Shown piece by piece: positions 4,677-45,523 of a stretch of 48,226 nt of DNA (its first letter is position 1; each line of letters begins with the position of its first letter). Under the pieces are notes generated by a model. It searched no databases and was not told the DNA's origin. It was given only the letters and a program-made list of their open reading frames with translations. The stretch is taken from contig NZ_QSDR01000032.1 of assembly GCF_003464085.1 (NCBI RefSeq), positions 1 through 48,226 on the forward strand, written 5' to 3'. This DNA is from Clostridium sp. AM58-1XD (GTDB lineage: Bacteria > Bacillota > Clostridia > Lachnospirales > Lachnospiraceae). Both the position numbers and the translations under genes were made by a program.

Positions 4677-5204
4677 TTATTTTCTAATTGACTTATAGAC
4701 TTTCTTCACAGCCTCCCGCCGCCTGCTCCCAAACGGCAACAACCTGTTCGCTATCCTGCGAACCATCGGATCATTCCCAATCCAATCCACCTTCGTCTGT
4801 GGCATACGGTTCTCCAGTTCGTCAGCAAAACACCTTCGAATCCGCCTTAACAACATTTCATAGTAAGGCGACAGTTTCCCATACCTCCAGAAGTACTCCG
4901 CAAAATCACAGTCCACCACATCCCATGGCTTCTGGTATCCAGCAAAATGAATCATATATGGCTGCTTCCTGGCCTTCATATATTCCTCATATAAAGCTCT
5001 CGGCGCCATCTTCATGATCTGCATACGGCTACGTCCCGGTTCTTCCCAGCTCATCAGCACATTCCACTGCTGTGGGATATAAAATACCTGGTTTTTACAT
5101 ATCTTATTGAGAACATCCTGGTCATGACATCTCCATGACGCGGATAACGCTATTTGGATCATTTCTTCAGAGCTGGCAGTTTTTCGTAGTCCGTCTAAGT
5201 CCAT
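4677..5204 (-). pseudogene. GT8 glycosyltransferase C-terminal part, separated from its gene by a frameshift
   Basis: This frame carries the C-terminal third of a family 8 glycosyltransferase: MDLDGLR, WRCHDQDVLN, then HFAGYQKPWD, the usual GT8 sequence around the last nucleotide-sugar contacts. It directly continues the protein encoded at 5207-6571, but one frame away. The upstream frame reads YFQAGV then stop, whereas adding one base before TGATC gives YFQAGVLIMDLDG, the normal GT8 sequence. The first ATG in this frame (5204) has no separate ribosome site, so I treat it as a detached exon-like remnant of one gene and not as its own gene. Base composition is more GC-rich than the downstream GT2 gene. 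Confidence 0.8.
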
Positions 5205-5206
5205 GA

Positions 5207-6571
5207 TCAAACTCCTGCCTGGAAGTAGTCGTAAGGTTTTTCTAATCCCAGCGTTTCTGTCGCATACATCCTCCAGTCGTTTTGGTTTAAGTTCACCTGC
5301 CCGGCCACATCGATATCTTTTGCAGCTCCAATAATACATCCGCCCAGATCCATGTCATAAAGCACCGCCACATCATGATCCACGACCATATCACAATCTA
5401 AATAAAGGATTTTGTGATAATCCGGCATGATTTCCGGAATAATAAGGCGGTAGTAGGTTTCAACGGAAAGATGCTGATCAACAAACAGCTTCCCTGAATC
5501 AAAATACTGGCTGACGCGGATAAAGCGGATGGAAATGTTATTCCGGTCTTTCGCTGCCTCTTTAATCAGGTTCTGGTTCTTTTCGGAAATGTCGTTGAAC
5601 AAGACAATTATGTCATATTGTCTTGTTGACGACGCATTTGCTATTATAGAGCGTATCATAATATCAAGATACGGAGCAAAGCGGTCATTTGCCGATAAAA
5701 CAACCGGCACTCCCTCAATAAATACTGGTTCTAGCTTTGCCATAGGTGCTGTGTCCTGGAACAGGGTCTTTGGAAGTTCGAATGTCTTAATACCTGTTTG
5801 CTTCTTCAGGTATGTATAATAGATTCCACAGAGACGTTCTGCCAAATATCCCATTACCCTATATTCTTCCACACTATACCAGGTTGTGTCAATTCTTTTT
5901 TCTGCCTCAAATAAAATATCAAATAACCATTCGCAATACTTTAAGTAAACTTCTTTTTTCATTATGAACATATTACACTCATGAGTAACATGAGAGTTCA
6001 TATATTCATTAGCTGCATCTTCAAATTCCGGATATTTTTCTGTCAAAATCTTCAATGCAATATCCAGATCTTTTCGATGTTGGAAGGGAGCCGCACCATA
6101 TTCATGGTAAACATCAAGCAGGCAGCCACCTTCCTGAATGCGCGGATACCGCCTCCCTTTTACAGAAATTATATCATACTTGGTTATTATTTTTCTAATC
6201 GCCTCAGGCTGAAGTTTTATTTCTTCAATAACCTTATCTGTAATTCGCTCATAGGCAATGTTTCCCCATCCGTCATCCTTATTGAGTTCCGGATCAAATG
6301 CCAAGTATCTTCTGTAGTGAAAAAATCCGTAATAATCTGCTTCTTCATTCTTCCATGCCCAATATTGAGCAGTGAGTTCACAGTAACTCTTATTCTTTTC
6401 TGAAATGTTTTCGCCTGTATCGTCATGCAGCATGCCTTCAAGGCGTTTTCCCGCCAACGCGGCTCCAACCTGAATCGGGTATAGATATGGATTTTCCGGG
6501 ACATAAGATTCTTTATGGCATACTACATAAAGTTTTAAGTTCGGTTCTTTACACAAATTATCCTGTTCCAT
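5207..6571 (-). CDS. DUF4422-GT8 fusion glycosyltransferase, truncated by a frameshift
   Basis: The first 265 or so residues are a DUF4422 domain, with LYVVCHKESYVP, GENISEKN, ELTAQYWAWKN and DYYGFFHYRRYLAF. DUF4422 proteins are found in polysaccharide loci and are presumed glycosyltransferases. From about residue 285 a family 8 glycosyltransferase begins, with VPVVLSANDRFAPYL and the metal-binding YLDCDMV (DCD at about 392-394). The frame stops after YFQAGV at 5207, in the middle of the GT8 domain. The rest of the domain lies in another frame at 4677-5204. The intact gene would encode about 630 residues. A sequencing deletion, a true null mutation or on/off variation in the short T run are all possible; I favour the first. 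Confidence 0.85.
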   Translation of the reverse strand: MEQDNLCKEPNLKLYVVCHKESYVPENPYLYPIQVGAALAGKRLEGMLHDDTGENISEKNKSYCELTAQYWAWKNEEADYYGFFHYRRYLAFDPELNKDDGWGNIAYERITDKVIEEIKLQPEAIRKIITKYDIISVKGRRYPRIQEGGCLLDVYHEYGAAPFQHRKDLDIALKILTEKYPEFEDAANEYMNSHVTHECNMFIMKKEVYLKYCEWLFDILFEAEKRIDTTWYSVEEYRVMGYLAERLCGIYYTYLKKQTGIKTFELPKTLFQDTAPMAKLEPVFIEGVPVVLSANDRFAPYLDIMIRSIIANASSTRQYDIIVLFNDISEKNQNLIKEAAKDRNNISIRFIRVSQYFDSGKLFVDQHLSVETYYRLIIPEIMPDYHKILYLDCDMVVDHDVAVLYDMDLGGCIIGAAKDIDVAGQVNLNQNDWRMYATETLGLEKPYDYFQAGV

Positions 6572-6598: not shown

Positions 6599-7345
6599 TT
6601 ATCCGAAGCTTTCCATATAAGCCTGGCATACATTTTCTACTTCGCCCTTCATCATTACCTGACCTTTGTTCAACCAAATGGCATGATCACAAATTTCCTG
6701 CACTGACTTTATTGCATGTGAAACAAACAAAAGAGTAGTTCCACCTGCCAGCATTTCCTGCATCCTTTTCTGGCACTTCTCCTGAAACGCTATGTCGCCA
6801 ACGGCAAGAACTTCATCTACAATCAAAATTTCCGGTCTTACAATTGTGGCAATGGCGAATCCCAGCCTGGCTGCCATACCAGAAGAATAATTCTTAATCG
6901 GCATATTCATGAAGTCTTGTAATTCTGCGAATTCAACAATTTCATCATAATGGCTGTCCATAAATTCCCTGCTGTATCCCAGCACTGCTCCATTAAGATA
7001 AATATTTTCTGTTGCAGTCAGCTCCCCATCAAATCCAGCTCCCAACTCAATTAAAGGAGCAATATTCCCATGAATTTCCACATTACCTCTATATGGCTTC
7101 AAAATGCCACAGATCAGCTTTAAAAGCGTTGATTTTCCAGAACCATTCGTACCTACTAGCCCCCAAGCCTCTCCTCTTTTCACTTCAAAACTGACATCTT
7201 TCAAGGCTAAAAACTCCTGAAACATTAATTCTTTTTTAACTAATTTAACGAAATACTCTTTTAAATTATCAATTTTTTCTGAAGCCATATTAAACCGCAC
7301 AGTTGCGTCTGTTACTTTAATCATACAATCATTTTCTGCTGCCAT
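6599..7345 (-). CDS. Polysaccharide ABC exporter, ATP-binding subunit (Wzt/TagH type)
   Basis: This 248-residue ABC ATPase has Walker A GTNGSGKST (65-73), the signature YSSGM (153-157), Walker B ILIVDE (173-178) and a switch histidine in LLFVSHA. The YSSGMAARLGFA form is typical of the O-antigen and teichoic acid exporter family. It powers export of a completed lipid-linked polysaccharide with the permease encoded 12 bases upstream (7358-8146). It lacks the extra C-terminal carbohydrate-binding domain found in Wzt proteins that recognise a capped chain end. Chain selection is therefore probably not done by this subunit. It belongs to the operon starting near 10435. Confidence 0.92.
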   Translation of the reverse strand: MAAENDCMIKVTDATVRFNMASEKIDNLKEYFVKLVKKELMFQEFLALKDVSFEVKRGEAWGLVGTNGSGKSTLLKLICGILKPYRGNVEIHGNIAPLIELGAGFDGELTATENIYLNGAVLGYSREFMDSHYDEIVEFAELQDFMNMPIKNYSSGMAARLGFAIATIVRPEILIVDEVLAVGDIAFQEKCQKRMQEMLAGGTTLLFVSHAIKSVQEICDHAIWLNKGQVMMKGEVENVCQAYMESFG

Positions 7346-7357
7346 ATCACACCCCGC

Positions 7358-8146
7358 TTATATATACAGTATAAATTTGTCTTGTGTCTTAAGGAATGCC
7401 CATGTACCGATCACAAGCACGAATATTGCCGCTCCTGTACCGGCAATAATGAGATATGGGTCCGGCATACGACCTTCTAAGACAATCTGGCGAAATTCCG
7501 CTACATAAAAATACATGGGATTCAGCGCCATAACAATCTGGCGCAATTTGTCCGGAAGTAGAGTAATAGGATAAAATAAGGGTGTCAAGTACATCCATGC
7601 GGTTATAATCGCATTGTAAATATACTGAATATCACGAAAGAATACCGAGCTCTGAGCCAAAAGCATACCTAATCCGAGACAGAAAATGTATTCCTGAAGC
7701 AAAATAACTGGAATTAACAGATAGTAAATATTAGGCGTCACCCTACAAACAATGAATACGATAACCAAAGCGCCCAAAGCAAACAGTGTATTTACAAAAG
7801 AACTGGTTACTTTTGATACTGTAAAAACATATTTTGGCACATAGGTTTTTTTGAGAAGGGCGGCATTCCCAGTTATCGAGGTGATTGCCTGATTTGTGGA
7901 TTCACTCATAAAGTTAAACAATGTCTGCCCGATAATCAGATAAACCGGAAAATTCTCTATATCTGATCTGAACATATTGGAAAAAACAATAACCATGATA
8001 ACCATAATCATCAATGGATTGAGAATACTCCATAAATATCCCAGAAAACTTCTTCGATATTTCAGCTTGATATCCTTTGTAACTAACTGTTGCATCAAAA
8101 AGCGATATTGGTAAAAACCGCCTAACCGCCTAAAGAAAATACCCAT
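7358..8146 (-). CDS. Polysaccharide ABC exporter, permease subunit (Wzm/TagG type)
   Basis: This is an ABC-2 type permease with about six membrane segments. The family hallmark near the N-terminus is present: LVTKDIKLKYRRSFLGYLWS followed by NPLMIMVIMVIVF. The C-terminal half has the usual YIYNAIITAWMYLTPLFYP region and ends with a Lys/Gln/Asp cytoplasmic tail. I prefer the ATG at 8146 over the one at 8152: AGGAG lies seven bases before the former but only one base before the latter. Together with the ATPase just downstream it exports the finished undecaprenyl-linked glycan across the cytoplasmic membrane. No Wzx flippase is seen in the window, consistent with an ABC-dependent pathway. Confidence 0.92.
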   Translation of the reverse strand: MGIFFRRLGGFYQYRFLMQQLVTKDIKLKYRRSFLGYLWSILNPLMIMVIMVIVFSNMFRSDIENFPVYLIIGQTLFNFMSESTNQAITSITGNAALLKKTYVPKYVFTVSKVTSSFVNTLFALGALVIVFIVCRVTPNIYYLLIPVILLQEYIFCLGLGMLLAQSSVFFRDIQYIYNAIITAWMYLTPLFYPITLLPDKLRQIVMALNPMYFYVAEFRQIVLEGRMPDPYLIIAGTGAAIFVLVIGTWAFLKTQDKFILYI

Positions 8147-8156
8147 AATCATTCTC

Positions 8157-15687: not shown

Positions 15688-15909
15688 ATGGAGCAGTTAT
15701 ACGTATTAGGGACAGGCTACGCAACGGCAACACGTTGTTATAATACCTGTTTTGCAATCAGACAGGACGACGATTTTTTTCTTGTAGATACAGGCGGAGG
15801 AAATGGCATCTTAAGAATTCTGGAAGACATGGAGATCGATACTGCAAGAATACATGACATCTTCATCACACATGAACATACGGACACATTCTGGGGATCG
15901 TGTGGCTGA
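15688..15909 (+). CDS. MBL-fold metal-dependent hydrolase, N-terminal part (frameshifted)
   Basis: The start is the ATG at 15688 (MEQLYVLGTG), with GGAGG six bases upstream; the in-frame ATG at 15676 overlaps that ribosome site. The piece shows the metallo-beta-lactamase fold opening (LYVLGTGYATATRCYNT, FFLVDTGGG) and the metal motif FITHEHTD. There the frame breaks: FITHEHTDTFWGSCG-stop becomes FITHEHTDHILGIVWLIR when one base is added near 15885. That restores the last His of the HxHxDH zinc motif. The ribonuclease Z-like continuation is at 15900-16496. The intact gene covers 15688-16496, about 270 residues. Confidence 0.87.
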   Translation: MEQLYVLGTGYATATRCYNTCFAIRQDDDFFLVDTGGGNGILRILEDMEIDTARIHDIFITHEHTDTFWGSCG

Positions 15910-16496
15910 TCCGCGTTATCGCAACCCGCATGAAAAAGGGAACATATGAAGGTGATCTGAATATATACTGTCACGAAGACCTTGTTGATACGATCACAAC
16001 CATCTGCCGCCTGACCGTACAGGGAAAATTCTTTAAAATGATCGGTGACAGAATTCACCTGATTCCCGTAAAAGACGGCGAAACAAAATGCATCATGGGA
16101 TATGATGTTACATTCTTTGACATCCACTCTACAAAGGCAAAGCAGTACGGATTTACAACAATTTTGAAAAACGGGAAGAAATTCACCTGCGCAGGGGACG
16201 AGCCATACAATGCCGACTGCCATATGTATGTTGAGGGAAGTCAGTGGCTGCTTCACGAGGCGTTCTGCCTTTATGGAGACAGGGACCGCTTTCAGCCTTA
16301 TGAAAAGCACCACAGCACGGTTAAGGAAGCCAGTGAGCTGGCTGAAAGCCTTAATATCCCAAATCTTGTTCTCTGGCATACGGAGGATAAGAATATTACA
16401 CGCCGCAAGGAACTTTATACGGCAGAAGGAAAAGAATATTATCATGGTAATCTCTTCGTTCCGGACGACGGCGAAATTCTCAGTCTGGACCGTTAA
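15900..16496 (+). CDS. MBL-fold metal-dependent hydrolase, C-terminal part (frameshifted)
   Basis: This frame continues the hydrolase from the zinc motif: WLIRVIATRMKKGTYEGDLN, then FTCAGDEPYNADC (the bridging Asp region), GSQWLLHEAFC and LVLWHTED (the last metal-binding His). The pattern fits the RNase Z/ElaC-like branch of the MBL fold that hydrolyses phosphodiesters, but the precise substrate is unknown. The first ATG-like start here is internal and lacks a ribosome site. It is one gene with 15688-15909, split by a one-base deletion. A possible leader/terminator structure for the next gene begins 70 bases downstream. Confidence 0.87.
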   Translation: MWLIRVIATRMKKGTYEGDLNIYCHEDLVDTITTICRLTVQGKFFKMIGDRIHLIPVKDGETKCIMGYDVTFFDIHSTKAKQYGFTTILKNGKKFTCAGDEPYNADCHMYVEGSQWLLHEAFCLYGDRDRFQPYEKHHSTVKEASELAESLNIPNLVLWHTEDKNITRRKELYTAEGKEYYHGNLFVPDDGEILSLDR

Positions 16497-16565: not shown

Positions 16566-16662
16566 ACATCAGGAAATACTCCGCATATGCTTATAACAGT
16601 ATTCCCCGGCATGTCCGAGGACTGAAATTTAAGTCGGAAGGGGCGTTTCCTGATGTTTTTTT
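16566..16662 (+). promoter_or_regulatory. Multi-branched RNA structure covering ribosome site and start of the M23 gene
   Basis: A perfect 11-bp stem pairs 16566-16576 (ACATCAGGAAA) with 16646-16656 (TTTCCTGATGT). The right arm contains the M23 gene's ATG (16653-16655) and is followed at once by seven T. The enclosed 69 bases can form further helices: TACT/AGTA (16577-16580 with 16598-16601), CCCC/GGGG (16604-16607 with 16640-16643) and GACT/AGTC inside. The AAGGGG ribosome site lies in the CCCC/GGGG helix. It could be a terminator of the MBL gene, or a leader controlling the M23 gene by termination and start-site masking. It matches no riboswitch class I know. Confidence 0.5.
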
Positions 16663-18035
16663 ATCATTTGTTCGATCACTTATGTAATATATTTCATAAA
16701 TTCTGTCATAAAATATCTTCTCTTTTTCATTCTTTCAAGGTCAGGATTCCGTTCATCGCCCACCCGGCTGATAGGAGCGATAAGGAACCTGTATTTTCGC
16801 AGCAGCCCGGCAGGCATCGCCGTCTCTCCCTTTCCTTTTCCATTATCCTTTTGGAATTGATCGTCCTACTTGGACTCTCCATACCGTTTTTCATGGCGGT
16901 CCCCACGTTTCTCGGCCAGATAGAGGGAATTCCGCTCCTTACTTCATCACGCAACCGTCTGTATACGGCAACAGATTCTGAGGCAAAGAAATTTATTAAA
17001 TGGGTGGATTTCGATGTGACGTCAGAAGCCATGAAAGCTGCTTTCCGATATGATGTAGATTCCTTTCAAAGCGATGTTCATTTGAATTGGGTCGATCTGC
17101 TCGCCTTTCTTGGTGCGAAATACGGCGGAGATTTTTCAAAGTATAAGAGCAGCGACATGGCTGCTCTGGCAGAGAGTCTGAAAGGCGGAAAGAAACTGGA
17201 AGACGTTACAAAAGACATGAAATATTTTTCCTATTATCGTGAAGCTTACGGCGCTGTTCTCGACGGCATGGTAGGCACTTACCGCATACAGATACCGAAA
17301 AGTGAAGCGCCGGCCTTTGCGCTGAACGATAACCAGAATCAGTCGGACCAGTCCTCCGGCAGCGCCTCACAGCTGTCTGAACCGGAATCTAATCCTGATA
17401 CTTCTAAAAATCCTGAATCTTCTAAAGACACAGGAAAAGAAGATGGCGACGGCAAGGATAAAGTATGGGTGACGAAATATGGACTGAAAGCATTTCATCC
17501 GCTTGCCAAAGGATTCCCTTACAGCGATTTTGATGATTTTGGCGTAGCCAGAAGCTACGGTTTCCGCAGGCAGCACCTGGGGCATGACATGATGGGGCAG
17601 GTAGGAAGCCCGGTAATCGCGGTGGAATCCGGGTACATTGAAGCGCTCGGCTGGAATCAGTACGGAGGCTGGCGGATTGGAATCCGCAGCTTTGATAAGA
17701 AAAGATATTATTATTACGCCCATCTCCGCAAAAATTATCCTTACCAGAAGGAACTGGCGGATTTAAAGGAAGGAGATACGGTAACGGCCGGCGACGTCAT
17801 CGGCTATCTGGGGCGCACCGGTTACAGCCGTACGGAAAATACAAATAATATCGACGAACCGCATCTCCATTTCGGCCTTCAGCTGATTTTTGACGAATCT
17901 CAGAAAGAAGGAAATAACGAGATCTGGGTAAACTGTTATGAACTGGTCAAGTTTCTCAACATGAACCGGTCTGAAGTGGTAAAGGCAGACGGGACAAAGG
18001 AGTGGGTGCGGGTGTATCAGATGGAAGATCAATAG
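16653..18035 (+). CDS. Membrane-anchored M23 family peptidase (LytM type)
   Basis: The 460-residue protein has a basic cytoplasmic N-terminus and one membrane helix (about 58-82, SLSFSIILLELIVLLGLSIP). An extracytoplasmic helical region and a Ser/Pro/Asp-rich linker (about 230-270) come next. The C-terminal M23 domain follows, with zinc-binding GHDMMG near residue 313, the SGYIEALGWN turn and HLHFGLQ near 408. M23 enzymes cut peptide cross-links of peptidoglycan; both HxxxD and HxH elements are present, so it is probably active. The start codon sits in a strong hairpin with AAGGGG nine bases upstream. A terminator follows at 18081. No operon partner is evident. Confidence 0.87.
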   Translation: MFFYHLFDHLCNIFHKFCHKISSLFHSFKVRIPFIAHPADRSDKEPVFSQQPGRHRRLSLSFSIILLELIVLLGLSIPFFMAVPTFLGQIEGIPLLTSSRNRLYTATDSEAKKFIKWVDFDVTSEAMKAAFRYDVDSFQSDVHLNWVDLLAFLGAKYGGDFSKYKSSDMAALAESLKGGKKLEDVTKDMKYFSYYREAYGAVLDGMVGTYRIQIPKSEAPAFALNDNQNQSDQSSGSASQLSEPESNPDTSKNPESSKDTGKEDGDGKDKVWVTKYGLKAFHPLAKGFPYSDFDDFGVARSYGFRRQHLGHDMMGQVGSPVIAVESGYIEALGWNQYGGWRIGIRSFDKKRYYYYAHLRKNYPYQKELADLKEGDTVTAGDVIGYLGRTGYSRTENTNNIDEPHLHFGLQLIFDESQKEGNNEIWVNCYELVKFLNMNRSEVVKADGTKEWVRVYQMEDQ

Positions 18036-18080
18036 AATCACATCCATTATTATATATCATATCATTTATTAATATTAAAA

Positions 18081-18143
18081 TGGATATCTGGCATACTGAT
18101 CATAAGTGTATTATACTTATGTTATAGCCTGATATCCGTTTTT
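18081..18143 (+). terminator. Rho-independent terminator after the M23 peptidase gene
   Basis: The 12-base arms 18081-18092 (TGGATATCTGGC) and 18127-18138 (GCCTGATATCCG) pair with one mismatch and one wobble. They enclose an inner CATAAGT/ACTTATG hairpin and are followed by five T. It ends the M23 transcript, so the LanM-like gene at 18200 needs its own promoter or readthrough. Confidence 0.75.
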
Positions 18144-18199
18144 GATTAATATTTTGAAATACACCTGGCAGGTAATCTGTTCTGCAGATCGGAGGATTT

Positions 18200-20077
18200 A
18201 TGAAGCAGTATGAAGTTCACACGCCTCAAAGTGAGATTTACCCCTCAATAAGCAACCAGACAGCTCTACTCGTTCATTCCCTCCCGCAGGTTTCCTATGC
18301 AAATTCTCTCCTGATTCAAAGAGATCCTGATTATAGGGAAATTTCCACACAACTATGGGACGGATTTCATGAGCAAATCACTGCTCTAATTATTTCTCAG
18401 CCCTATGATACGTATCATGCCGGTCCTGCGCTGCTTGAATCATTGCGCGGGGTACTCAGCGCCGACTCAGAAATTCTTAAACTCATGTCATATGCTTTCA
18501 GTAAAAGCGGCAATACAAAAGAGGAACAGATCGATTATATATTTAATTCACTCACCGATCAGCGCGCTCCTGTAGATCAGTTATTATTCCAGTCTCACTT
18601 TTCCCGGGTTGCCCAGGGTGTAACGGAACTGATGCAGGATATTCTTTATTGGGGCGCACATTTAAACGCCGCTGCTGTCACTGAAATCATTTTCACCGAA
18701 AGCGATCTTCATGACCGTGGATTAGGAGCCTCTATCGTTACTTATAAAACAGGACTTCTTTCCTCTGTAAAAAAAGTGATCAAGCCGGATAACCGGTCTA
18801 TTGACCGCAGCCTTCTGGGCAGTCAGCCCGGCAGCCTGGCCAATCAGTTTAACCGTCTGCCCCTGACGGTCGATGGAGATACGCGGCCTCTGGGCGGGCA
18901 GGTCCGCACCAGGACAATCGATGTTTCCGGCAGCCATGGCTCTATGGAGGAATTCATCCCCCACCTGCAGATCAAAAATATTCCTGCCTCGAAACGTTCT
19001 TCCATCTCTGTCCCAGACGAAAAAAAGACGCAGATTTTTTCGGCCCTGACTGGGCTGGAAGATCTTCATTATGAAAATCTCGTCTATACCACCCGCCTGC
19101 TGCGCTACTACCCGGCCGTAATCGATAGCGATATGCCGCTTTCCAAAAGGATATGGGGCAGCCTGAAGCATGCAGCTTCATGGAACCATGGTTTCCATTT
19201 CGATGGAGACGGGGCGGTCCATTCAGTCGAAGGCATCGATGCTTCATTCATAAAAACAGCAGTCAAAGCGGCCTTTCAGGGAGTACACGGAAGAGTGGTC
19301 CCAATTATGACCAGTCAGCTTCAGGATCGAATGATCACGTTTTCGAGCCTTCCGTCCGAAGATATCTGGGACGAGGGCAATCTGTCCGCACTTATCACGA
19401 ATGCCGCCAATAAAACCGGAGCCAGCTATAATGCTGTCGATAATGCCTATGCAGAAAAAGCCGTAGTCCTGGCAACCGTGGCTGCCGCCAAAGTATATTC
19501 TACCATTATCTATCCTGCGAAGTCTGATCTGAAGATCAAGAATTCTGATCTGGCGCCAAAAGCCCTTAACTTCGATATGTCCTCTTTGTTTAGTGGCACT
19601 TCCGCCACCATGACACATAATGCGTTCCTCTCCATGTTTAACAACTTCGATGATAGCGAAAAGCTGTGGTTCTGTGACAGATATATCTCTTATATGGAGG
19701 GCTTAAAAATCGGCTATGAATCTGTTCTTAAAGATGTTTCCAACAAAAGCACAAAGTTTTTTTATACCTTCCTCACACTTCTTGAATCAGGCACTTTTGC
19801 TGAAACACCACAATTGGAAACAGCTCCCGGCCTTCAGGGTATCGTCGGCCCAGCTGGACAGACCATGACTGCCTCTGAACGAAAAACAGCCTGCGAAGAA
19901 GCAGTGAAATGCTTCAAGGCAGGCCAGATTCCATTTTATGAATACCACTATTCGACAGGTGAAGTTAAAACGAACGGACAGACAATCTGGAATGGCCCGA
20001 CTCTGGACGAGCTGTTCAGTGATGAAAATGCTCAGGACCTGGCAGACCGGCTTTCCGGCGCCATACCTGATCGTTAA
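18200..20077 (+). CDS. Orphan LanM-like (DUF4135) dehydratase-domain protein without cyclase domain
   Basis: I do not know this protein by name, but its motifs fall in the order seen in the dehydratase half of type II lanthipeptide synthetases (LanM). SDLH-x-x-G is at 168-174, with a strand and lysine VKKVIKPDNRSID at 190-202 (LanM: YKPR then S-x-D). DLHYEN is at 288-293 and VIDSD at 307-311 (LanM: DLHFEN and IDLE); these correspond to the kinase-like active site. GLKIGY is at 501-506, STKFFYTFLTLLE at 517-529, and GQIPFY at 575-580 (LanM: DIPYF). It ends at residue 625, where LanM proteins continue into a zinc LanC-like cyclase. No precursor peptide, protease or exporter gene is adjacent. 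The start has GGAGG six bases upstream. It could phosphorylate or dehydrate an unknown target. Confidence 0.72.
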   Translation: MKQYEVHTPQSEIYPSISNQTALLVHSLPQVSYANSLLIQRDPDYREISTQLWDGFHEQITALIISQPYDTYHAGPALLESLRGVLSADSEILKLMSYAFSKSGNTKEEQIDYIFNSLTDQRAPVDQLLFQSHFSRVAQGVTELMQDILYWGAHLNAAAVTEIIFTESDLHDRGLGASIVTYKTGLLSSVKKVIKPDNRSIDRSLLGSQPGSLANQFNRLPLTVDGDTRPLGGQVRTRTIDVSGSHGSMEEFIPHLQIKNIPASKRSSISVPDEKKTQIFSALTGLEDLHYENLVYTTRLLRYYPAVIDSDMPLSKRIWGSLKHAASWNHGFHFDGDGAVHSVEGIDASFIKTAVKAAFQGVHGRVVPIMTSQLQDRMITFSSLPSEDIWDEGNLSALITNAANKTGASYNAVDNAYAEKAVVLATVAAAKVYSTIIYPAKSDLKIKNSDLAPKALNFDMSSLFSGTSATMTHNAFLSMFNNFDDSEKLWFCDRYISYMEGLKIGYESVLKDVSNKSTKFFYTFLTLLESGTFAETPQLETAPGLQGIVGPAGQTMTASERKTACEEAVKCFKAGQIPFYEYHYSTGEVKTNGQTIWNGPTLDELFSDENAQDLADRLSGAIPDR

Positions 20078-20137: not shown

Positions 20138-21394
20138 TTATCCCAGCATATGAATAAACAGCCCGCTTCTCAGCTTCGGCTCGAACCATGTGGATTTCGG
20201 CGGCATGAGAAGACCTGCATCCGCTACGGAAAGCAGCTCTTCGATGGATGTGGGATACATGGAAAATGCGATTTCCATGTCTTGTGCTACCCGACGTTCC
20301 AGCTCCTTCAACCCGCGGATACCTCCTATAAAGTCGATTCTTTTGTCAGTTCTCGGGTCTCCGATCCCAAGAACCGGCCCGAGAAGGCAGTCCTGAAGAA
20401 CCGATACATCCAGACTCTTTACCGGGTCGTTCTTCACCGCTTTTGCAGCTTCTTTCTTAAGTGTCAGCTTATACCAGATGCCGTCCAGAAGCATACCGAA
20501 GGTGGCTTTTTCCTTAGGCTCAAAAGGTGAAACTCCTACATCTCCAGCTCTCCTGATCTCGAAACTATCGTCGACTTTTTTCAGAAATGCATCCTTTGAA
20601 AGTCCGTTCAAATCCTTTACCACACGGTTATACGGCATGATCATCAGCTGCTCATCCGGGAACAGCACGGAAAGGAAATAATTAAACTGCTCTCTGCCTG
20701 TGTAATCTGGATTCTCTTTTCTGCGCTTTAAGCCCACCTTGACAGCGGAAGCCGCTCTGTGATGTCCATCTGCGATATATGTCGCAGGCACCTTTGCAAA
20801 TGCCGTCTCAACAGCGCTCACCATATCCGCGCTGTCAATCTTCCAGACGCGGTGGCGGATTCCGTCTTCTGATGTAAAGTCATATAGTTCATCTGTACCG
20901 GTAACCAGGTTTACAATTTTGTTGATCTCATCTGTCGCACGATAAGCGAGAAAAATCGGTCCTGTATGGGCATTCGTCACATCCACGTGGCGGATGCGGT
21001 CCAGTTCTTTCTCCTCTCTTGTATTCTCATGCTTTTTTATAATACCGTTCAGATAATCGTCGATGGATGAACACGCAACGATTCCCGTCTGTGTCCGTCC
21101 ATCCATAGTAAGCTCATAGATGTAATAAGCGTCAACTGTACCGGTGACGAATGTTCTGTCTGCTATTCTGTCATTCAAAAGCTCTTTTGCTTTCAAATAC
21201 ACCTGCTCGCTGTACATATCATAATCGTCCGGAAACTGTGTCTCCGGACGGTCAATATTCAAAAATGAGAGCGGTTTTCCCTGCACTTCTTCCTTTGCTT
21301 CTTTTCTGCTGTATACATCATACGGCAGAGCCGCTACCTGGCTGACAACCTCTGGAGCCGGTCTCACACACCGAAACGGTTTTACAACTGCCAT
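20138..21394 (-). CDS. DUF1015 family protein of the serine cluster
   Basis: The 418 residues match the DUF1015 family: MAVVKPFRCVRP at the start, AALPYDVYSRKEA, PLSFLNIDRPE, then THPG-like NAHTGPIFLAYR, TYIADGHHRAASA (strongly conserved) and a C-terminal STWFEPKLRSGLF. The biochemical activity of the family is not established. It is commonly found next to serC and serA in Clostridia and other anaerobes, as here, which suggests a role in serine or glycolytic-acid metabolism. The ATG follows AGGAGGAGACAG. The 191-base gap to serA is filled mostly by a palindromic repeat element, so co-transcription is likely but not certain. Confidence 0.88.
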   Translation of the reverse strand: MAVVKPFRCVRPAPEVVSQVAALPYDVYSRKEAKEEVQGKPLSFLNIDRPETQFPDDYDMYSEQVYLKAKELLNDRIADRTFVTGTVDAYYIYELTMDGRTQTGIVACSSIDDYLNGIIKKHENTREEKELDRIRHVDVTNAHTGPIFLAYRATDEINKIVNLVTGTDELYDFTSEDGIRHRVWKIDSADMVSAVETAFAKVPATYIADGHHRAASAVKVGLKRRKENPDYTGREQFNYFLSVLFPDEQLMIMPYNRVVKDLNGLSKDAFLKKVDDSFEIRRAGDVGVSPFEPKEKATFGMLLDGIWYKLTLKKEAAKAVKNDPVKSLDVSVLQDCLLGPVLGIGDPRTDKRIDFIGGIRGLKELERRVAQDMEIAFSMYPTSIEELLSVADAGLLMPPKSTWFEPKLRSGLFIHMLG

Positions 21395-24035: not shown

Positions 24036-24890
24036 TCAGATTTCCAGATCAGATTCATCAAAGACATCCTGAATCGCTGCTCCCGGAGAAACCATCGGGA
24101 ATACCTTGTCATCACATCCGATTTCGCATTCAATGACTACCGGCTCTTTTAATTCAATTGCCTCTCTCAGGACCGGCTCCAGCTCTTCCACTTTAGTAAC
24201 CTTAAATGCTTTTGCTCCAAGTCCCTCTGCCACTTTTATGAAATCCACACTGTCTTCCAATATTGTATGTGAATAACGCTTTCCATAGAACATTCCCTGC
24301 CACTGGCGCACCATACCCAGCACATGGTTATTCAGAATAATCTGAATAACCGGAATCTTATATCTGGTCGCCGTAGCGATCTCATTCATATTCATGCGGA
24401 AACATCCATCGCCCGCAATATTAAACACAAGTTTATCCGGACAGCCGATCTTGGCACCGATTGCAGCACCGAGGCCGTAGCCCATAGTACCCAGACCGCC
24501 TGATGTCAGAAGGGTTCTAGGGCTGCGGTATTTGTAATACTGTGCCGCCCACATCTGGTTCTGACCGACCTCTGTCGTAATGATCGCGCCTCCATCCGTT
24601 ACCTTGTCAATCGTTTCTATCACTCCTGGTCCGGTCAGTATATCCTTATGATAGCTTAACGGATAGGCTTCCTTCATTTTCTGAATATGTTCCAGCCATT
24701 CCTTATGATCAATTGGATCCAGTCTGGCATTCATTTTCCTTAAAATAATCTTTAAATCACCGATTACTCTGGCGTCTACATCCACGTTCTTGTTGATTTC
24801 CGCAGGATCCACTTCAAACTGGATGATTTTGGCGTTTTTGGCAAATCTGGCTGCATTTCCTGTCACGCGGTCACTAAACCGGGCGCCCAT
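24036..24890 (-). CDS. ilvB: Acetolactate synthase large subunit, C-terminal part (frameshifted)
   Basis: This frame starts inside the middle domain (MGARFSDRVTGN) and continues through the thiamine-diphosphate domain. TEVGQNQMWAAQYY comes first, then the TPP/Mg motif GDGCFRMNMNEIATA ending about 30 residues later in LNN, QWQGMFYGKRYSHT and an FPMVSPGAAI tail. It is continuous with 24896-25717: one added base near 24901 turns ECDL-stop into ECDLLIVMGARFSD. The internal ATG has no ribosome site. The joined enzyme would be about 560 residues, normal for IlvB. No ilvN regulatory subunit gene follows; the operon ends here in a terminator. Confidence 0.93.
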   Translation of the reverse strand: MGARFSDRVTGNAARFAKNAKIIQFEVDPAEINKNVDVDARVIGDLKIILRKMNARLDPIDHKEWLEHIQKMKEAYPLSYHKDILTGPGVIETIDKVTDGGAIITTEVGQNQMWAAQYYKYRSPRTLLTSGGLGTMGYGLGAAIGAKIGCPDKLVFNIAGDGCFRMNMNEIATATRYKIPVIQIILNNHVLGMVRQWQGMFYGKRYSHTILEDSVDFIKVAEGLGAKAFKVTKVEELEPVLREAIELKEPVVIECEIGCDDKVFPMVSPGAAIQDVFDESDLEI

Positions 24891-24895
24891 TACAA

Positions 24896-25717
24896 TCAGA
24901 GGTCACATTCCGTAATTCCGAAATTAGATGTTTTCGTGCCGTGCATACCTACCATGCCTGTATAAAGCGGATCATTTCCGTCAAAAACCCCTTTTCCCAT
25001 CAGGCTGTCCGCAACAGGCGCCTGTATTTTATGAGCAAATGCCCGTACTTCTTCCCATGCTTCTGCCGCTACGGCGCCTCCTCCCACAAGGATATAGGGC
25101 CGTTTTGCTTTACGGATCATGTAGAGTGCGTTTTCCAGGTCTTTTTCCGTGATTGTATCCGTCTTTCTCTGAATTTCTTCCGGCTGATGATAGGAATATA
25201 CGCAGGAATTCGATGTTACATCCTTCGTAATATCCACCAGCACAGGGCCGGGACGCCCTGTTTTTGCAATTACAAATGCGCGGCGGATTACCCTCGCCAG
25301 ATTCTGTACGTCTTTTACAATGTAATTGTGCTTCGTAATAGGCATAGTAATTCCGGCAATATCTATCTCCTGAAAGCTGTCTTTTCCAAGAAGGCTTGTA
25401 GCGACATTGCAGGTAATCGCTACCATAGGAACGGAATCCATATATGCTGTCGCAATACCTGTAACCAGGTTCGTGGCACCTGGTCCTGACGTTGCCAGGC
25501 AGACGCCTACCTTTCCCGTAGCCCTGGCATATCCGTCTGCCGCATGAGCAGCTCCCTGTTCATGAGACGGCAGAACATGCCAGATTTCGTCCTGGTGATT
25601 ATAAAGTGCATCGTATATATTTAAAATAGCTCCGCCCGGATAGCCGAATACCGTATCCACGCCCTGCTCCTTCAGACATTCAACTACTATTTCTGCTCCT
25701 GTTAATGTTTTATCCAT
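24896..25717 (-). CDS. ilvB: Acetolactate synthase large subunit, N-terminal part (frameshifted)
   Basis: Acetolactate synthase condenses two pyruvates, or pyruvate and 2-oxobutyrate, in branched-chain amino acid synthesis. The N-terminal TPP-binding domain is clear: TVFGYPGGAILNIYDAL, then PSHEQGAAHAADGYAR containing the catalytic Glu53, GVCLATSGPGATNLVTG, SFQEIDIAGITMPITKHN and GRPGPVLVDITKDV. The frame stops at 24896 after FGITECDL, in the FAD/central domain, because of an apparent one-base deletion. The remainder is at 24036-24890. It is the third gene of leuB-ilvD-ilvB, 12 bases after ilvD. Confidence 0.94.
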   Translation of the reverse strand: MDKTLTGAEIVVECLKEQGVDTVFGYPGGAILNIYDALYNHQDEIWHVLPSHEQGAAHAADGYARATGKVGVCLATSGPGATNLVTGIATAYMDSVPMVAITCNVATSLLGKDSFQEIDIAGITMPITKHNYIVKDVQNLARVIRRAFVIAKTGRPGPVLVDITKDVTSNSCVYSYHQPEEIQRKTDTITEKDLENALYMIRKAKRPYILVGGGAVAAEAWEEVRAFAHKIQAPVADSLMGKGVFDGNDPLYTGMVGMHGTKTSNFGITECDL

Positions 25718-35270: not shown

Positions 35271-36371
35271 TTATACATCAGAACACTTCCGTATGATTCC
35301 GCATGCCTTATAATTTTTCAGCCCATATGGTACCACCTCAACCCCTTTTTCATGAGCCAGGCTGAAAATATGACGCAGAACAGGATCGTCCACCTCTTCT
35401 TTCTTTATCAGAATCTTCCACGGTACGCGCCGCAAAAGCACTCTTGTCGTTTCTCCTATACCCGGCTTAATAAAGTTAATATCGGTGACGTTGAAGTCTT
35501 CAGCAATCTCCCTGATCTCCTCCAGCCCTGTCCGTATCCCTTTCGTTCTGCTGCTTTCCAGTTTGCTGCATTCCGTTTCCGCGCCTTCCTCCCATCTGTC
35601 TCCTTTATGAGTGTCATAGATAAATTCTTTCTCCACGGCGTTTATGAATTCATAAGTAACATCCTTTGCTTCTAATTCTCCATAATATGCTGCGCCGTGA
35701 AAGTCATCCTCTCCTATGATATCGTCCCTTAAAAACGTTCGGCTCATCAGTCCGGAAACAACGCTGTTCAGGCACGAGCTTGGAATCAGAATGTCTTCAT
35801 GCGTTCCGCAGAGTTCCGTCATATGCGCCGGGTCCGCCAGTACGGCCAGCTCAGGGGAAACGCCGTTATACTCTTTTACTGCTTCCTCCAGAACGGAAAG
35901 AATCGCACCTTTTCCGATCCATCCATCTACAAACTGAAGATCCTCTGCCCTGTGGTTTTCCAGCAGATACTTCATGGCATTCCTGTCAATGCCCTTTCCC
36001 CGTATAATGGAAATGGTATAATGAGGCAGGCAGATTTTATATTTATTCCACAGATAGTGCTTCATCAGAACACCAGCAGACGTTCCGGCTCTCGCCAGTG
36101 AGACAAGGACTGCCTCCCTCCCCTTTTTCCTCAGAATTTTCTCTGCCGCCGCCGCGGCTGCGGCTGCCGTTTCTCCCGCATAGTTCTTAAGCGCAATCTT
36201 ATACGCCTCCATATATCCAGGAGACGGCTCATACTCTAAAGGCAGCATTTCGCAGTAGTGCGTTCCGCTCTGTATCTTTTTTTCTCTCTCCTCTGTCGGA
36301 AGGGGCTTCACCAGCCCTGTGATATCCTTCAGTAAAATAATCACGTCTTCAATTCTGTATGTGCTTCTCAC
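35271..36371 (-). CDS. StiP-type cysteine protease of the Ter biosynthetic module
   Basis: The 366-residue protein matches the StiP-like family found in tellurium-resistance-linked biosynthetic operons: a MRSTYRIEDVIILLKDITG start, SGTHYCEMLPLEYEP, VLVSLARAGTSAGVLMKHYL, HYTISIIRGKGIDRNA and FVDGWIGKGAI. An alanine-rich helix (TAAAAAAAAEK) is notable. The family is annotated as a cysteine protease, but I cannot assign the catalytic residues with certainty, and parts resemble phosphoribosyltransferase sequence. It is the last gene of the run HAD, lyase, PRTase, StiP, starting one base after the PRTase stop, so translation is coupled. Confidence 0.82.
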   Translation of the reverse strand: MRSTYRIEDVIILLKDITGLVKPLPTEEREKKIQSGTHYCEMLPLEYEPSPGYMEAYKIALKNYAGETAAAAAAAAEKILRKKGREAVLVSLARAGTSAGVLMKHYLWNKYKICLPHYTISIIRGKGIDRNAMKYLLENHRAEDLQFVDGWIGKGAILSVLEEAVKEYNGVSPELAVLADPAHMTELCGTHEDILIPSSCLNSVVSGLMSRTFLRDDIIGEDDFHGAAYYGELEAKDVTYEFINAVEKEFIYDTHKGDRWEEGAETECSKLESSRTKGIRTGLEEIREIAEDFNVTDINFIKPGIGETTRVLLRRVPWKILIKKEEVDDPVLRHIFSLAHEKGVEVVPYGLKNYKACGIIRKCSDV

Positions 36372-37586
36372 CTATTCACTCCATCTGACTATATAAATTT
36401 TCGAGTTTCCAGCGGCTTCCAGAGCTGATGTAAGGCTCTCTATTCCCTGTGCCGTATAATTTCTCGTATCGCTCATAAGAAAAACTACGTCGTAAGAATC
36501 CAGATTATAAATATAAGTTGTCCTTTCTCCATCGTAAACGCTCTTTAATTCTGCTCTCGACTGGAGAGGATAACCTTCTTCTGCATCCGGAAGAATCGGA
36601 CTCCTAGTTGTTGCATGGAAACGCACATCGCAGCTGCATTCCTCTTCCACATACTGAGCTGTTTTCAAAGCCGGATACATAAATTCCTCCGTACCAAGAA
36701 AAAGGGCCCGTTTGCCTGACCAATCCCATCCTGGTTCTTTTTCCGCCAGCCAGATACAAAAATGTGCCAAATTTCTGCTTGCCTTCAGATATGGAACCGG
36801 TTCTACCCCCAAGCGCGGCTCACACCTTCCCGGCGCCGAATAGATGATCCTTTCTCCCTTCTTCCGGCAGCTTTTTTCTTCTTCCATATCCCTGGAAAAA
36901 TCCTCTTTTTCTCCTTTAAAATCATAACGTTCCAGCTCCGCTGTGAAATCTCGGCCGCTTATTTTCTTTAAAAACAGGCGTTTAATCCCCGCCCGGTCAA
37001 ATTTTTCCGAATTGCTCTCATCCATGCCATTCAGAACGGAGACGATTCCAAAGGCCAGTTTTCGCTCCCTGCCTCCTCCTGAACCGCGCTCTGAGTCACT
37101 TTCCGAATCCGCTTCGTACCTCTCTCTCATACACTGAATCAGATTCCATATGGTATTGCCTGTTGTCACCTCGTCTTCTGCAAATACAATTCTGTCTGCG
37201 AGGCGGATCATTTCATCTAATTTCTCTGTTGCCAGCCGCTGCTCGGTCGCATGACTGTGGATCTCTGAAAAATAAAGGAAGTTCGAACTGCCTTCCACCT
37301 GTTCTCGCGTCGTATGCATATAAAACATAACTTCCGGGCAGTTTTCTGCAATTATCGCTCCTATGGCCGTAGCTGTTTCTGCAAATCCGATTAAAAGCAG
37401 CCTTTCTCCCGCATAAGTGTCTGAAACTTTCCCTGCCAGCTCTTGAACCATATGGATACATCGGGACGGCTGCACCGGAATATGCTTTCCCTGAAGAGGA
37501 TTTACAAGAAGGTATGACCGCTTCGTGTTATTATCCCTCTTTGCGATTTTCATCAATTCCTGTTCTTCATATATTCTCATCGTCAT
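36372..37586 (-). CDS. Ter-module phosphoribosyltransferase
   Basis: The 404-residue protein has a PRTase domain in its N-terminal half: LVNPLQGKHIPVQPSRC, LLLIGFAETATAIGA (PPi-loop region) and the PRPP-binding VFAEDEVTTGNTIWNLI (about 132-148). The C-terminal half (RNLAHFCIWLAEKEPGW, ALFLGTEEFMYPALK, FHATTRSPI, DVVFLMSDTRN) fits the TRSP-type domain fused to such PRTases in Ter operons. It is predicted to make an N-glycosidic bond with PRPP in synthesis of a nucleoside-like metabolite (proposal of Anantharaman and co-workers); the product is unknown. The start overlaps the upstream lyase gene by 20 bases. The middle holds a Ser/Glu/Arg-rich insert. Confidence 0.85.
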   Translation of the reverse strand: MTMRIYEEQELMKIAKRDNNTKRSYLLVNPLQGKHIPVQPSRCIHMVQELAGKVSDTYAGERLLLIGFAETATAIGAIIAENCPEVMFYMHTTREQVEGSSNFLYFSEIHSHATEQRLATEKLDEMIRLADRIVFAEDEVTTGNTIWNLIQCMRERYEADSESDSERGSGGGRERKLAFGIVSVLNGMDESNSEKFDRAGIKRLFLKKISGRDFTAELERYDFKGEKEDFSRDMEEEKSCRKKGERIIYSAPGRCEPRLGVEPVPYLKASRNLAHFCIWLAEKEPGWDWSGKRALFLGTEEFMYPALKTAQYVEEECSCDVRFHATTRSPILPDAEEGYPLQSRAELKSVYDGERTTYIYNLDSYDVVFLMSDTRNYTAQGIESLTSALEAAGNSKIYIVRWSE

Positions 37587-38589
37587 TCACTCCATAAATT
37601 TCTGCCAGCTTCAGAACCTTTTTCGCCCATGTCGTATGAGTCTTCTTCTCGTTCATCCTCTCGCCCCCGTTATTCTTGGCTACTCCCAGAGAATCTCCCT
37701 CCCAGTCAAGTATTGACAGGGCATCCTGATAATCAGCCTTCCGTACGCGCATGCAGCTGTTAACGACCGGAATCTGATTGGGATGGATTACAGTCTTTCC
37801 TATAAAGCCGTTCAGTAGGTCCATTCTGATTTCTCTTTCCAGCCCTTTTTTCCACAGCTCTCTGTCTCCTGCAAAGTATTCCCATACAGGACCCGAAACC
37901 ACATAATCTCTCGAAAATACGGTCAAAATATCCGTAAGTATCTTTGATACGGCCCGGACATCATAAATACTTTCATCCATGCGGCGGCGTACTCCAAAGT
38001 AACTGCAGAAATCATTTCCTCCGACACGTACATTCAGGACCATATCTCCTGCTTCATCCAGCATATCCTTGACCGCATACAGATTTTTCTTCCTGGTTCT
38101 CATGTCAATGATGTCCCCGCTCTCCAGAATCGGCATCATATACATCTTTCTGCCGTTTTTTTCATTAAGCCGCTTCATAATCCCGATATAATCTCTTCCT
38201 CCCGATACCGAAAACTTAGGGAAGACGTATCCTGCAAGAATATCACTGTATGCAAGGAATTTCCCTCCCAACTGTTCCAGCTGACCCGGTGTCCGTACAC
38301 GGACAAATATCAGCGGCAGTTCTTCATTTTTGATCTGTCCGGCTCTCCATGCTTCACAGATTTCACCCAGTGTTTTCTCCAGCTGTTTTTCCGCCTGTCC
38401 CACTGCCTCATCCCGGATCGAATCCTCCAGACAGAAGCAGAGCGAATAAGAGCCTCCGTACTTCCTTTCGATCACGCCTTCTGCGGCCGACTCCTGTATG
38501 GCCGGCGTATACATAAGCGGCCCCACTCCATATGCCAGCTTTTCCTTTTCCCAGTCTCGTTTCTGACCGCCCCTGCTTTTATATTCCAT
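37567..38589 (-). CDS. HpcH/HpaI-CitE-like C-C bond lyase of the Ter module
   Basis: The 340-residue TIM-barrel protein is related to citrate lyase beta/HpcH aldolases. Features are GPLMYTPAIQES near the start, CLEDSIRDEAV (metal-binding acidic strand), PLIFVRVRTPGQ (CoA/substrate Arg), MPILESGDIIDM and VLNVRVGGNDFCSYFGVRR. FIGKTVIHPNQIPVVN is the classic CitE-type C-terminal motif. In Ter operons this C-C bond lyase family accompanies a PRTase and HAD phosphatase. The substrate is unknown. It starts 46 bases after the HAD gene and overlaps the PRTase start. Confidence 0.87.
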   Translation of the reverse strand: MEYKSRGGQKRDWEKEKLAYGVGPLMYTPAIQESAAEGVIERKYGGSYSLCFCLEDSIRDEAVGQAEKQLEKTLGEICEAWRAGQIKNEELPLIFVRVRTPGQLEQLGGKFLAYSDILAGYVFPKFSVSGGRDYIGIMKRLNEKNGRKMYMMPILESGDIIDMRTRKKNLYAVKDMLDEAGDMVLNVRVGGNDFCSYFGVRRRMDESIYDVRAVSKILTDILTVFSRDYVVSGPVWEYFAGDRELWKKGLEREIRMDLLNGFIGKTVIHPNQIPVVNSCMRVRKADYQDALSILDWEGDSLGVAKNNGGERMNEKKTHTTWAKKVLKLAEIYGVNDDENI

Positions 38590-38635
38590 GTCAATCGTTC
38601 TCCTGACTTTCTCCTATCATATAAACTGGCTGTTC

Positions 38636-39409
38636 CTAAAAACAGTCCTTTAAATATTGTAACACTACATTTGATAAAAAGGAATCCCTACTGGTTTCAC
38701 AGTCTTTTCGTCCCTTATTCTTCCGGATCATTCCATGAAGCTCTTTCGGGTAAAATGAAAGATCTGCTTCTTCCAGCATTCCGATATCAAACAGGCTGTC
38801 TCCGGCTGCCGCCGTTAAATCTGGGCAAAGCCTCTCTTTCAGTTTCCTGACTGCCCACGCCTTACTCATTTTCTTTGGAAAAATGTAAACCTTTTCTCCA
38901 TTAGAAAACAACGATACCTGTTTCGTATCAAGGGCCGTATCCATCTGCCCCAGCACCTGTTCCGGATTCTTTACTTTTGTAAAGACGAACAGTCCGTCTA
39001 CCAGCCTCACGTCCAGATTTCTGTCCCTTGTATGTTCCAGGATATCCATTCCCCTTTTCATCTCTTCTTCTGCTTCCTTTTTGACTGCCATAGACTCCGC
39101 CAGCCACTGTCTGTCTATCTCTCCATTATGGAGAAGAATCCCGCCGTTGCTTACAAGGGCATATTCGGGCATCCGTTTTCCCGTTCGTATATGTTCAGGA
39201 AACCGTATACGGCCATATTGTTCCATAGACCGTGTTGTTACCGGCACAAACCTCACCTGATCGGAAAGTGTGCTCAACATTTGACTGGCTTCCTCCGTCA
39301 TGTAAGACAGATTTTTCCCATCCTTCTCTTCCACCAGGACCCTGCTTCCAATTTCTTTTTTATAGGAATAGATCAGTGTATTGTCCAAATCCGATACAAA
39401 TAAAACCAT
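38636..39409 (-). CDS. HAD family phosphatase of the Ter module
   Basis: This is a 257-residue Cof-like HAD hydrolase. Motif I is VSDLDNTLIYS (nucleophile Asp7), motif II falls in VPVTTRS, the motif III Lys is probably in KKMSKAWAVRKL, and motif IV is AAGDSLFDIGML. It would remove phosphate from the module's metabolite. It is the first gene after a terminator-like hairpin at 39461-39518, so the four enzyme genes HAD, lyase, PRTase and StiP may be expressed partly apart from the upstream TerD and ATPase genes. I found no convincing promoter in the 50-base gap between hairpin and start. Confidence 0.87.
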   Translation of the reverse strand: MVLFVSDLDNTLIYSYKKEIGSRVLVEEKDGKNLSYMTEEASQMLSTLSDQVRFVPVTTRSMEQYGRIRFPEHIRTGKRMPEYALVSNGGILLHNGEIDRQWLAESMAVKKEAEEEMKRGMDILEHTRDRNLDVRLVDGLFVFTKVKNPEQVLGQMDTALDTKQVSLFSNGEKVYIFPKKMSKAWAVRKLKERLCPDLTAAAGDSLFDIGMLEEADLSFYPKELHGMIRKNKGRKDCETSRDSFLSNVVLQYLKDCF

Positions 39410-39460
39410 ATTCTGTCACCTGCAGTCTTTCTTGTTTTTCAAAGTAGACGATCCTGTAAA

Positions 39461-39518
39461 ATATAAAAACGGAGGCTTCAGCTGCCGAACCGCAGTCCGG
39501 CAGTATCATTCCCCCGTT
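39461..39518 (-). terminator. Internal terminator or attenuator in the Ter operon
   Basis: On the minus strand, AACGGGGG (39511-39518) pairs with CCTCCGTT (39468-39475) around an inner CTGCCG/CGGCAG hairpin, followed by TTTTTATATTTT. It lies between the P-type ATPase stop (39565) and the HAD gene start (39409). It could lower expression of the four metabolic genes relative to the upstream part. Confidence 0.65.
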
Positions 39519-39564
39519 CATATAATTCCAAATAATAAAGTAATTATTATCAGCTGTTCTTCCG

Positions 39565-42221: not shown

Positions 42222-42242
42222 AAATTCTCCTCCGGAAATCTA

Positions 42243-42367
42243 TATGAGGGGGGTGCAAAAGTCAAATCGGACACGCCCCGAACCAGATTTCGTTCCAAAT
42301 CAGTTGCCATGTCACTAAAATCCGGTTCAGGGCTGCCCCCTTTTCCTTTATTTACATCCCCCTCATA
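42243..42367. repeat. Intergenic palindromic repeat, copy D (diverged)
   Basis: The ends TATGAGGGGG and CCCCCTCATA are inverted repeats. Inside, GCCCCGAACCAGATTT pairs imperfectly with AAAATCCGGTTCAGGGC. The centre ACCAGATTTCGTTCCA...GTCAC-TA matches copies A and B read on the other strand. It is located within the Ter operon between a TerD gene and the ATPase gene. Confidence 0.65.
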
Positions 42368-42386
42368 TGAATCAGTCCTACTGTGG

Positions 42387-42986: not shown

Positions 42987-43037
42987 ATCGTTTTCCTCTC
43001 TTTTTTTATTTCGCTCGGTCCTCGCTCCATAAAAACA

Positions 43038-43087
43038 CGCGGGAACCGCCTTGACCTTACGGTCAAGCCGTAGCAAATAGTTCCGCG
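43038..43087 (-). other. Two-level hairpin between TerD genes
   Basis: CTTGACC (43050-43056) and GGTCAAG (43061-43067) form a 7-bp stem with a TTAC loop. They sit inside an outer helix of CGCGGGAAC (43038-43046) with GTTCCGCG (43080-43087). It lies in the 124-base gap between the second and third TerD genes. There is no T run, so an RNA processing or stability element is more likely than a terminator. Confidence 0.5.
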
Positions 43088-43110
43088 CTTTCACGGCGCG
43101 TCACTATTTT

Positions 43111-43692: not shown

Positions 43693-43713
43693 AATGACCT
43701 CCTGTCCTTTCTT

Positions 43714-44295: not shown

Positions 44296-44358
44296 AGTGT
44301 TCTCTCCTTTTATATATTTCTCAGCTTTAGCCGTACTCAGGCCATCCGCTGGCTGATA

Positions 44359-45507: not shown

Positions 45508-45523
45508 TTGCCATTTCTCCTCT

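Follow-up and report, generated by a model that had tools for sequence, protein, structure and literature searches.

A stand-alone LanM-like kinase/lyase protein of Clostridium sp. AM58-1XD as a putative injected effector

The DNA analyzed here, called the window throughout, comprises 48,226 nucleotides (positions 1 to 48,226) of contig NZ_QSDR01000032.1 from the gut bacterium Clostridium sp. AM58-1XD (assembly GCF_003464085.1). Its plus strand carries, at 18200 to 20077, an ATG-initiated gene for a stand-alone LanM-type kinase/lyase protein of 625 amino acids, assigned from the open reading frame (ORF) call, a structure model, a structural search, and a profile score, and read by us as a possible injected effector. 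A GGAGG ribosome binding site, seen directly in the sequence at 18191 to 18195 (plus strand), stands 4 nt 5′ of the ATG. By domain scan, the upstream neighbor on the same strand encodes an M23 peptidase (16653 to 18035) and the convergent downstream neighbor a DUF1015 protein (20138 to 21394, minus strand), leaving gaps of 164 and 60 bp. A terminator-like hairpin with a T-run (18077 to 18142, plus strand; −27.6 kcal/mol, z −6.9), absent from the list produced by a simple terminator scan, separates the M23 gene from the 625-aa gene, and because it follows that upstream gene, the 625-aa gene probably has a promoter of its own. An earlier, sequence-only reading of the locus had described these same flanks around a LanM-type dehydratase domain with neither a cyclase nor a small peptide gene beside it, and this description was borne out. 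Pfam finds no LanC in the protein, and no precursor-like peptide was seen in the two flanking gaps (six frames, by eye). Neither a LanC domain nor a lantibiotic precursor was found in the 35 of 76 window ORFs (at least 100 aa) that were run against Pfam, the other small ORFs being unscanned. A lantibiotic locus was rejected because neither element was recognized around the gene. An ABC transporter pair at 6599 to 8152 is surrounded by glycan genes.

Direct searches with the window protein returned no relative among proteins (best 7,992 candidates listed), in genomes (by pattern), in viral contigs, or in plasmids and phages (both tblastn). Among 397 sampled Lachnospiraceae genomes, three matches were obtained at an E value of ≤0.01, two of them weak (G015 and G042; E, ∼0.003) and one clear (genome G245, locus L081), with 39% identity over window residues 141 to 329 (E = 6.5e-23). 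A search with the protein of this clear relative, P0002, gave at least 34 proteins including itself (best 7,994 candidates). These 34 relatives and the window protein form an alignment of 35 rows, five of them short, in which the relatives are 21 to 28% identical to the window protein. A profile built from the 34 relatives without the window protein scores it at 175.7 bits over residues 51 to 374 and 557 to 590, whereas 2,000 shuffles reached at most 4.8 bits and the 269 other stop-to-stop window frames of >60 aa at most 3.8 bits, which rules out a chance motif match. In a tree that carried a long-branch warning, the window protein groups with the 34 relatives, separate from five LanMs, with 100/100 support. 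Judged by sequence, then, the protein is a divergent member of a family of stand-alone LanM-like domains. The label "orphan" suggested by the sequence-only reading finds no support for such a protein, 11 of whose 35 family rows are fused to eCIS_core (PF13699, named DUF4157 in the literature), a domain that Pfam does not find in the window protein itself.

The search with the DUF4135 hidden Markov model that the earlier reading had proposed gave a mixed answer, with the window protein alone weak at 15.1 bits, below the Pfam gathering score of 29, and P0002 at 52.2 bits and 33 of the 35 rows matching at an E value of ≤0.01. Against TIGR03897, the NCBIfam LanM model with a cutoff of 304 bits, the window protein gave no match at an E value of ≤1, P0002 scored 30.3 bits, and 21 of 35 members matched at an E value of ≤0.01. 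No LanC domain was found in the window protein or in any of the 35 rows at an E value of ≤0.01. A DUF4135 search of the genus matched 0 of 11, but carries no weight because its control gave no match either; the 35-row profile searched against the protein database returned the window protein alone, apparently as the search words derived from the first row; and the same profile searched against PDB sequences returned catalytic-loop stretches of GRK5 alone (best E, 0.074) and no LanM. An anti-phage system was rejected, as PADLOC matched neither the window protein nor P0002 or P0012, and a phage or plasmid gene was likewise rejected, since the window protein is unmatched in plasmids, phages, and viral contigs. 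P0002 had no phage match, its plasmid matches were two Streptococcus salivarius lanM genes (E = 1e-4), and its model had no match in a viral structure library at an E value of ≤0.001. As a separate observation, P0011 carries a precomputed LepB_N domain, found in 1 of the 35 rows (E = 0.0033), and lipid-kinase-like effectors may be remote kin.

The residues of the LanM active site have sequence counterparts in this family. In CylM, passages of PMC4550811 assign K274, D347, H349, N352, and D364 to phosphorylation and D252, H254, R506, and T512 to elimination. When the family was compared by hhalign with an alignment of five LanMs from plasmids (E = 2.8e-11), window residues D169, H171, K195, D288, H290, N293, and D309 fell on LanM residues. 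The invariant columns of the 35 rows include K195, P196, D288, H290, E292, N293, D309, R365, and T371, so that the Lys/DxHxxN/D set named in the earlier reading was found throughout the homologs, and D169 and H171 are conserved at ≥90%. On the plus strand, the corresponding elements, placed by the family alignment, hhalign, and the CylM literature, are a P-loop TESDLHDRG (18695 to 18721) with D169 and H171, equivalent to CylM D252 and H254 of elimination; K195-P196 (18782 to 18787; CylM K274); the catalytic loop DLHYEN (19061 to 19078) with D288, H290, and N293 (CylM D347, H349, and N352); and IDSD (19121 to 19132) with D309 (CylM D364). GQIPFY (residues 575 to 580; 19922 to 19939, plus strand) is a C-lobe motif common to the family and LanM in the alignments and profile. 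The motif positions given earlier (SDLH at 168, KPDNRSID at 195, DLHYEN at 288, IDSD at 308, and GQIPFY at 575) were all confirmed, and GLKIGY lies at 501.

The elimination pair had been read differently, with Thr518 kept and the arginine lost. We place it instead at R365-x5-T371 (19292 to 19312, plus strand), the proposed counterpart of CylM R506 and T512, which is invariant in 35/35 rows at the LanM R-x5-T spacing; four of the five LanMs show the motif at the expected place, and a Streptomyces LanM shows none clearly. When C-terminal parts were compared by hhalign, each of three overlapping cuts placed R365 and T371 on the LanM Arg and Thr (E, 0.0007 to 0.0012), and in models of both the window protein and its relative the Arg lies in a strand and the Thr starts the next helix. 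Thr518 was rejected as the elimination threonine; both it and the "GLKIGY helix" lie within residues 375 to 556 (19322 to 19867, plus strand), a segment unaligned to the family profile and mostly of low predicted local distance difference test (pLDDT) score. Sequence counterparts of all nine CylM kinase and elimination residues are present in the window protein. We also count the LanM dehydratase fold as present on the basis of the model, the structure search and hhalign placement being in keeping with the fold and kinase residues proposed earlier.

An N-terminal leader of residues 1 to 46 (18200 to 18337, plus strand) is predicted to be disordered in the structure model (pLDDT, <50). At its junction with the domain lies LIQR (residues 38 to 41; 18311 to 18322, plus strand), a [PVILM][IVM]Q motif shared with the family in a leader motif count. 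Within 75 aa before the domain, [PVILM][IVM]Q[RKMYCLGQ] occurs in 23 of 30 leaders against 1.63 expected, five of the 35 having been dropped as too short. A semi-independent check covered 14 further eCIS_core proteins, of which 6 have [PVILM][IVM]Q within 90 aa after the core, against an expectation of 1.82; these 14 are nonduplicate tails of at least 60 aa from 28 loci, the matches include G245's own cargo (L094), and four retained tails (L117, L118, L119, and L124) resemble false eCIS_core matches. A match of the 35-row alignment to the eCIS_core cargo of G245 (E = 9.3e-6) was discarded as a sign of a shared leader, since it sits at the end of eCIS_core and beyond and the alignment itself contains rows with eCIS_core. 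We observed separately that [PV][IV]Q recurs immediately ahead of the effector domain and, in other cargo, downstream of eCIS_core; the HExxH core might use it as a processing site.

The eCIS_core fusions connect the family with extracellular contractile injection systems (eCIS). In passages of PMC11297309, DUF4157 is given for 36% of known eCIS toxins versus 0.06% of others (see also PMC8213781), and 88% of known eCIS toxins are placed within ten genes of the operon. In the 397 Lachnospiraceae genomes, eCIS_core was found in 21 at an E value of ≤0.001 (20 above the cutoff), a contractile injection system tube in 39, and both in 15 (Fisher, 1.7e-12). The contig of the G245 relative carries genes for an AAA protein, a sheath, two gp19 tube proteins, CIS_tube, a spike (Phage_base_V), gp25, baseplate J, and Tail_P2_I, as seen in a scan that covered 20 of the 30 L089 and L090 ORFs with a length of ≥120 aa. 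Two further sheath genes lie on other contigs of that genome, and contig C3 encodes a 463-aa eCIS_core cargo protein (L092, 784 to 2175, minus strand) with an HNH-like CHH motif, noted by eye. No RiPP (ribosomally synthesized and posttranslationally modified peptide) gene was recognized beside the G245 relative (ORF list, by eye). A BspA-type leucine-rich repeat gene (L084, 12412 to 13311) ends 14 bp before the relative and could be an operon partner.

Passages of Zhang et al. 2012 (PMC3482391) describe a "Tox-Peptide Kinase" with motifs DxH, YKP[KR], DxHxEN, DxE, S, and R, found in Firmicutes and associated with PVC, and suggest for it, as a predicted injected, protein-modifying toxin, the phosphorylation of Ser/Thr within target cells. 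A literature search for that name returned this paper alone. The window family likewise has a LanM-related kinase domain, occurs in Firmicutes, is associated with PVC (eCIS), and carries DxH, KP, and DxHxEN; the window protein itself has DxH (SDLH at 168) and DxHxEN (DLHYEN at 288). It differs in having IKPD rather than YKP[KR] and DSD rather than DxE, the family having mostly IKPE and DAE, and in having no PVC-metallopeptidase (eCIS_core) and an unshared segment at 375 to 556. In kind, the family is Tox-Peptide Kinase, although the window protein departs from the printed YKP[KR] and DxE; the lyase pair R-x5-T is a point that we add to this known kind. With LanMs such as CylM and LicM2, the window protein shares the N-terminal domain fold and counterparts of the nine residues, but it lacks the LanC cyclase, has no linked precursor that we could see, and is only 12 to 15% identical in structural alignments; by contrast, an annotated lantibiotic precursor lies near LanM in three of the five plasmid LanM stretches. 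Targets of the window protein would end up carrying dehydrobutyrine or dehydroalanine, an outcome shared with the phosphothreonine lyase effectors OspF and SpvC (PMC4159009). OspF and SpvC act on already phosphorylated kinases, whereas here one enzyme would perform both steps. Their fold is different from the LanM-like fold. PoyF-type stand-alone dehydratases also have the dehydratase half without the cyclase, and they belong to RiPP clusters with a precursor. The strings "lanthi" and "DUF4135" are absent from the main texts of PMC11297309 and PMC8213781, and "lanthi" from that of PMC12210884. A passage of PMC12560110 mentions a 556-aa Cardinium protein distantly similar to lanthipeptide synthetase, which could, by its length, be another member.

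We propose, with a probability of about one half, that the window protein is a divergent LanM-like Tox-Peptide Kinase effector that is injected, phosphorylates Ser/Thr, and eliminates the phosphate. The disordered leader would load the protein into an eCIS or a comparable secretion pathway. Once inside the target cell, the protein would bind ATP, phosphorylate Ser/Thr of one or more target proteins via K195, D288, H290, N293, and D309, and then eliminate the phosphate via D169, H171, R365, and T371. The product would be dehydroalanine or dehydrobutyrine, an irreversible change; no cyclase would be needed. The effector reading is put forward because 11 of the 35 rows are fused to eCIS_core, which makes modification of another cell's proteins a more likely role than antibiotic making. 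We agree with the earlier reading that the substrate might not be a linked peptide. Delivery of the window protein itself by an eCIS or similar route is what we infer from its relatives. We extend this only tentatively to the whole family, whose members would be injected Ser/Thr dehydratases that phosphorylate and then eliminate, leaving dehydroamino acids in another cell's proteins; lantibiotic synthetase chemistry would then have been recruited as a weapon or host-signaling tool in gut Clostridia. If the lyase half works, kinase and phosphate elimination would be joined in one delivered protein, a coupling not found for injection-system cargo in our literature search (titles and starts of abstracts). 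With this family the 2012 prediction, in which its members are kinases only, can be tested directly. The family is also a warning that a short protein labeled DUF4135 or "lanthipeptide synthetase" may be an effector and not part of an antibiotic pathway.

Several observations weigh against this proposal. The window protein lacks eCIS_core and no eCIS gene or eCIS_core domain was recognized in the same 35 of 76 window ORFs; 24 of the 35 members, the window protein among them and five of them short, are without the domain, so that the protein could instead take another route or act intracellularly. In G245, the only whole genome with a clear relative (1/397, and 1/391 in a second search), the eCIS operon starts ∼28 kb from that relative, farther than usual, and the P0002 leader resembles that of the eCIS_core cargo weakly (9 of 19 residues identical; E = 0.053, or 8.7e-5 with loose settings). 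The leader pattern was written after inspection of the leaders. The branch of the window protein is very long (3.72), the family's E311 is replaced by Asp, and the full-length profile alignment leaves R365 and T371 off the LanM Arg and Thr. The comparison with CylM called for by the sequence-only reading did give a structural match, though with Foldseek template modeling scores of 0.31 (query) and 0.23 (CylM) and from a model of mean pLDDT 61.

Some of these points bear on other explanations. The protein might be an injected or exported kinase only, as the 2012 paper predicts in passages on phosphorylation, with the R…T pair binding substrate or the activation loop and no elimination taking place. 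The kinase half is the part best aligned with LanM, and the metal-binding Asp and the Arg lie only 56 residues apart (D309 to R365) versus 139 in the S. salivarius LanM, but all four CylM elimination residues have counterparts, D169 and H171 at ≥90% and R365 and T371 in 35/35 rows, and we regard a pure kinase as doubtful. Alternatively, the protein could be a stand-alone LanM-type dehydratase like PoyF that serves a RiPP pathway, with the precursor and the remaining enzymes encoded elsewhere. The LanM-like fold and residues speak for this, and the dehydratase half of CylM functions alone. This we consider unlikely, given that no RiPP gene was recognized beside the window gene or the G245 relative, that eCIS_core is fused in 11/35 relatives and LanC in 0/35, and that the tree splits the family from the five LanMs. 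It is more improbable still that the gene is decaying or catalytically lost cargo retained in this strain only. The long branch, the want of a close relative in the collections searched, and the absence of the gene from a related locus speak for such decay, whereas 625 open codons, a ribosome binding site, neighbor-like composition, and retention of all catalytic residues at 21 to 28% identity speak against it.

That related locus emerged from a comparison of the best 80 of 497 DUF1015 relatives, many of the loci being cut short. The closest DUF1015 relatives belong to Lachnospiraceae; none of the 80 loci encodes a relative of the 625-aa protein (best tblastn E, 3.1), and the M23 ortholog is present at four. 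At L008 the M23 and DUF1015 genes directly abut, ∼70 bp apart, and at L003, L011, and L031 a 395-aa gene, which probably encodes an iron-type alcohol dehydrogenase, adjoins DUF1015. From the empty site and the different occupant we conclude that the 625-aa gene is accessory and that the site it occupies varies. Its composition (GC, 0.476; GC at third codon positions, 0.486) is similar to that of its neighbors and gives no support to a recent foreign origin. An ORF at 15900 to 16496 encodes a metallo-β-lactamase-fold, RNase Z-like protein whose N-terminal part is seemingly missing, with relatives in L003, L008, and L031.

Elsewhere in the window, three minus-strand genes are each split, by frameshifts or assembly errors, into two ORFs that match consecutive portions of a single family: a family 8 glycosyltransferase (4677 to 5339 and 5207 to 6571), a thiamine-pyrophosphate enzyme of the acetolactate synthase type (24036 to 24890 and 24896 to 25717), and a P-type cation ATPase (39565 to 41316 and 41313 to 42221). 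A Ter-type stress cluster extends from 35271 to 47995 and includes StiP, PRTase_2/TRSP, C-C_Bond_Lyase, the cation ATPase, TerD, TelA, and YceG_bac.
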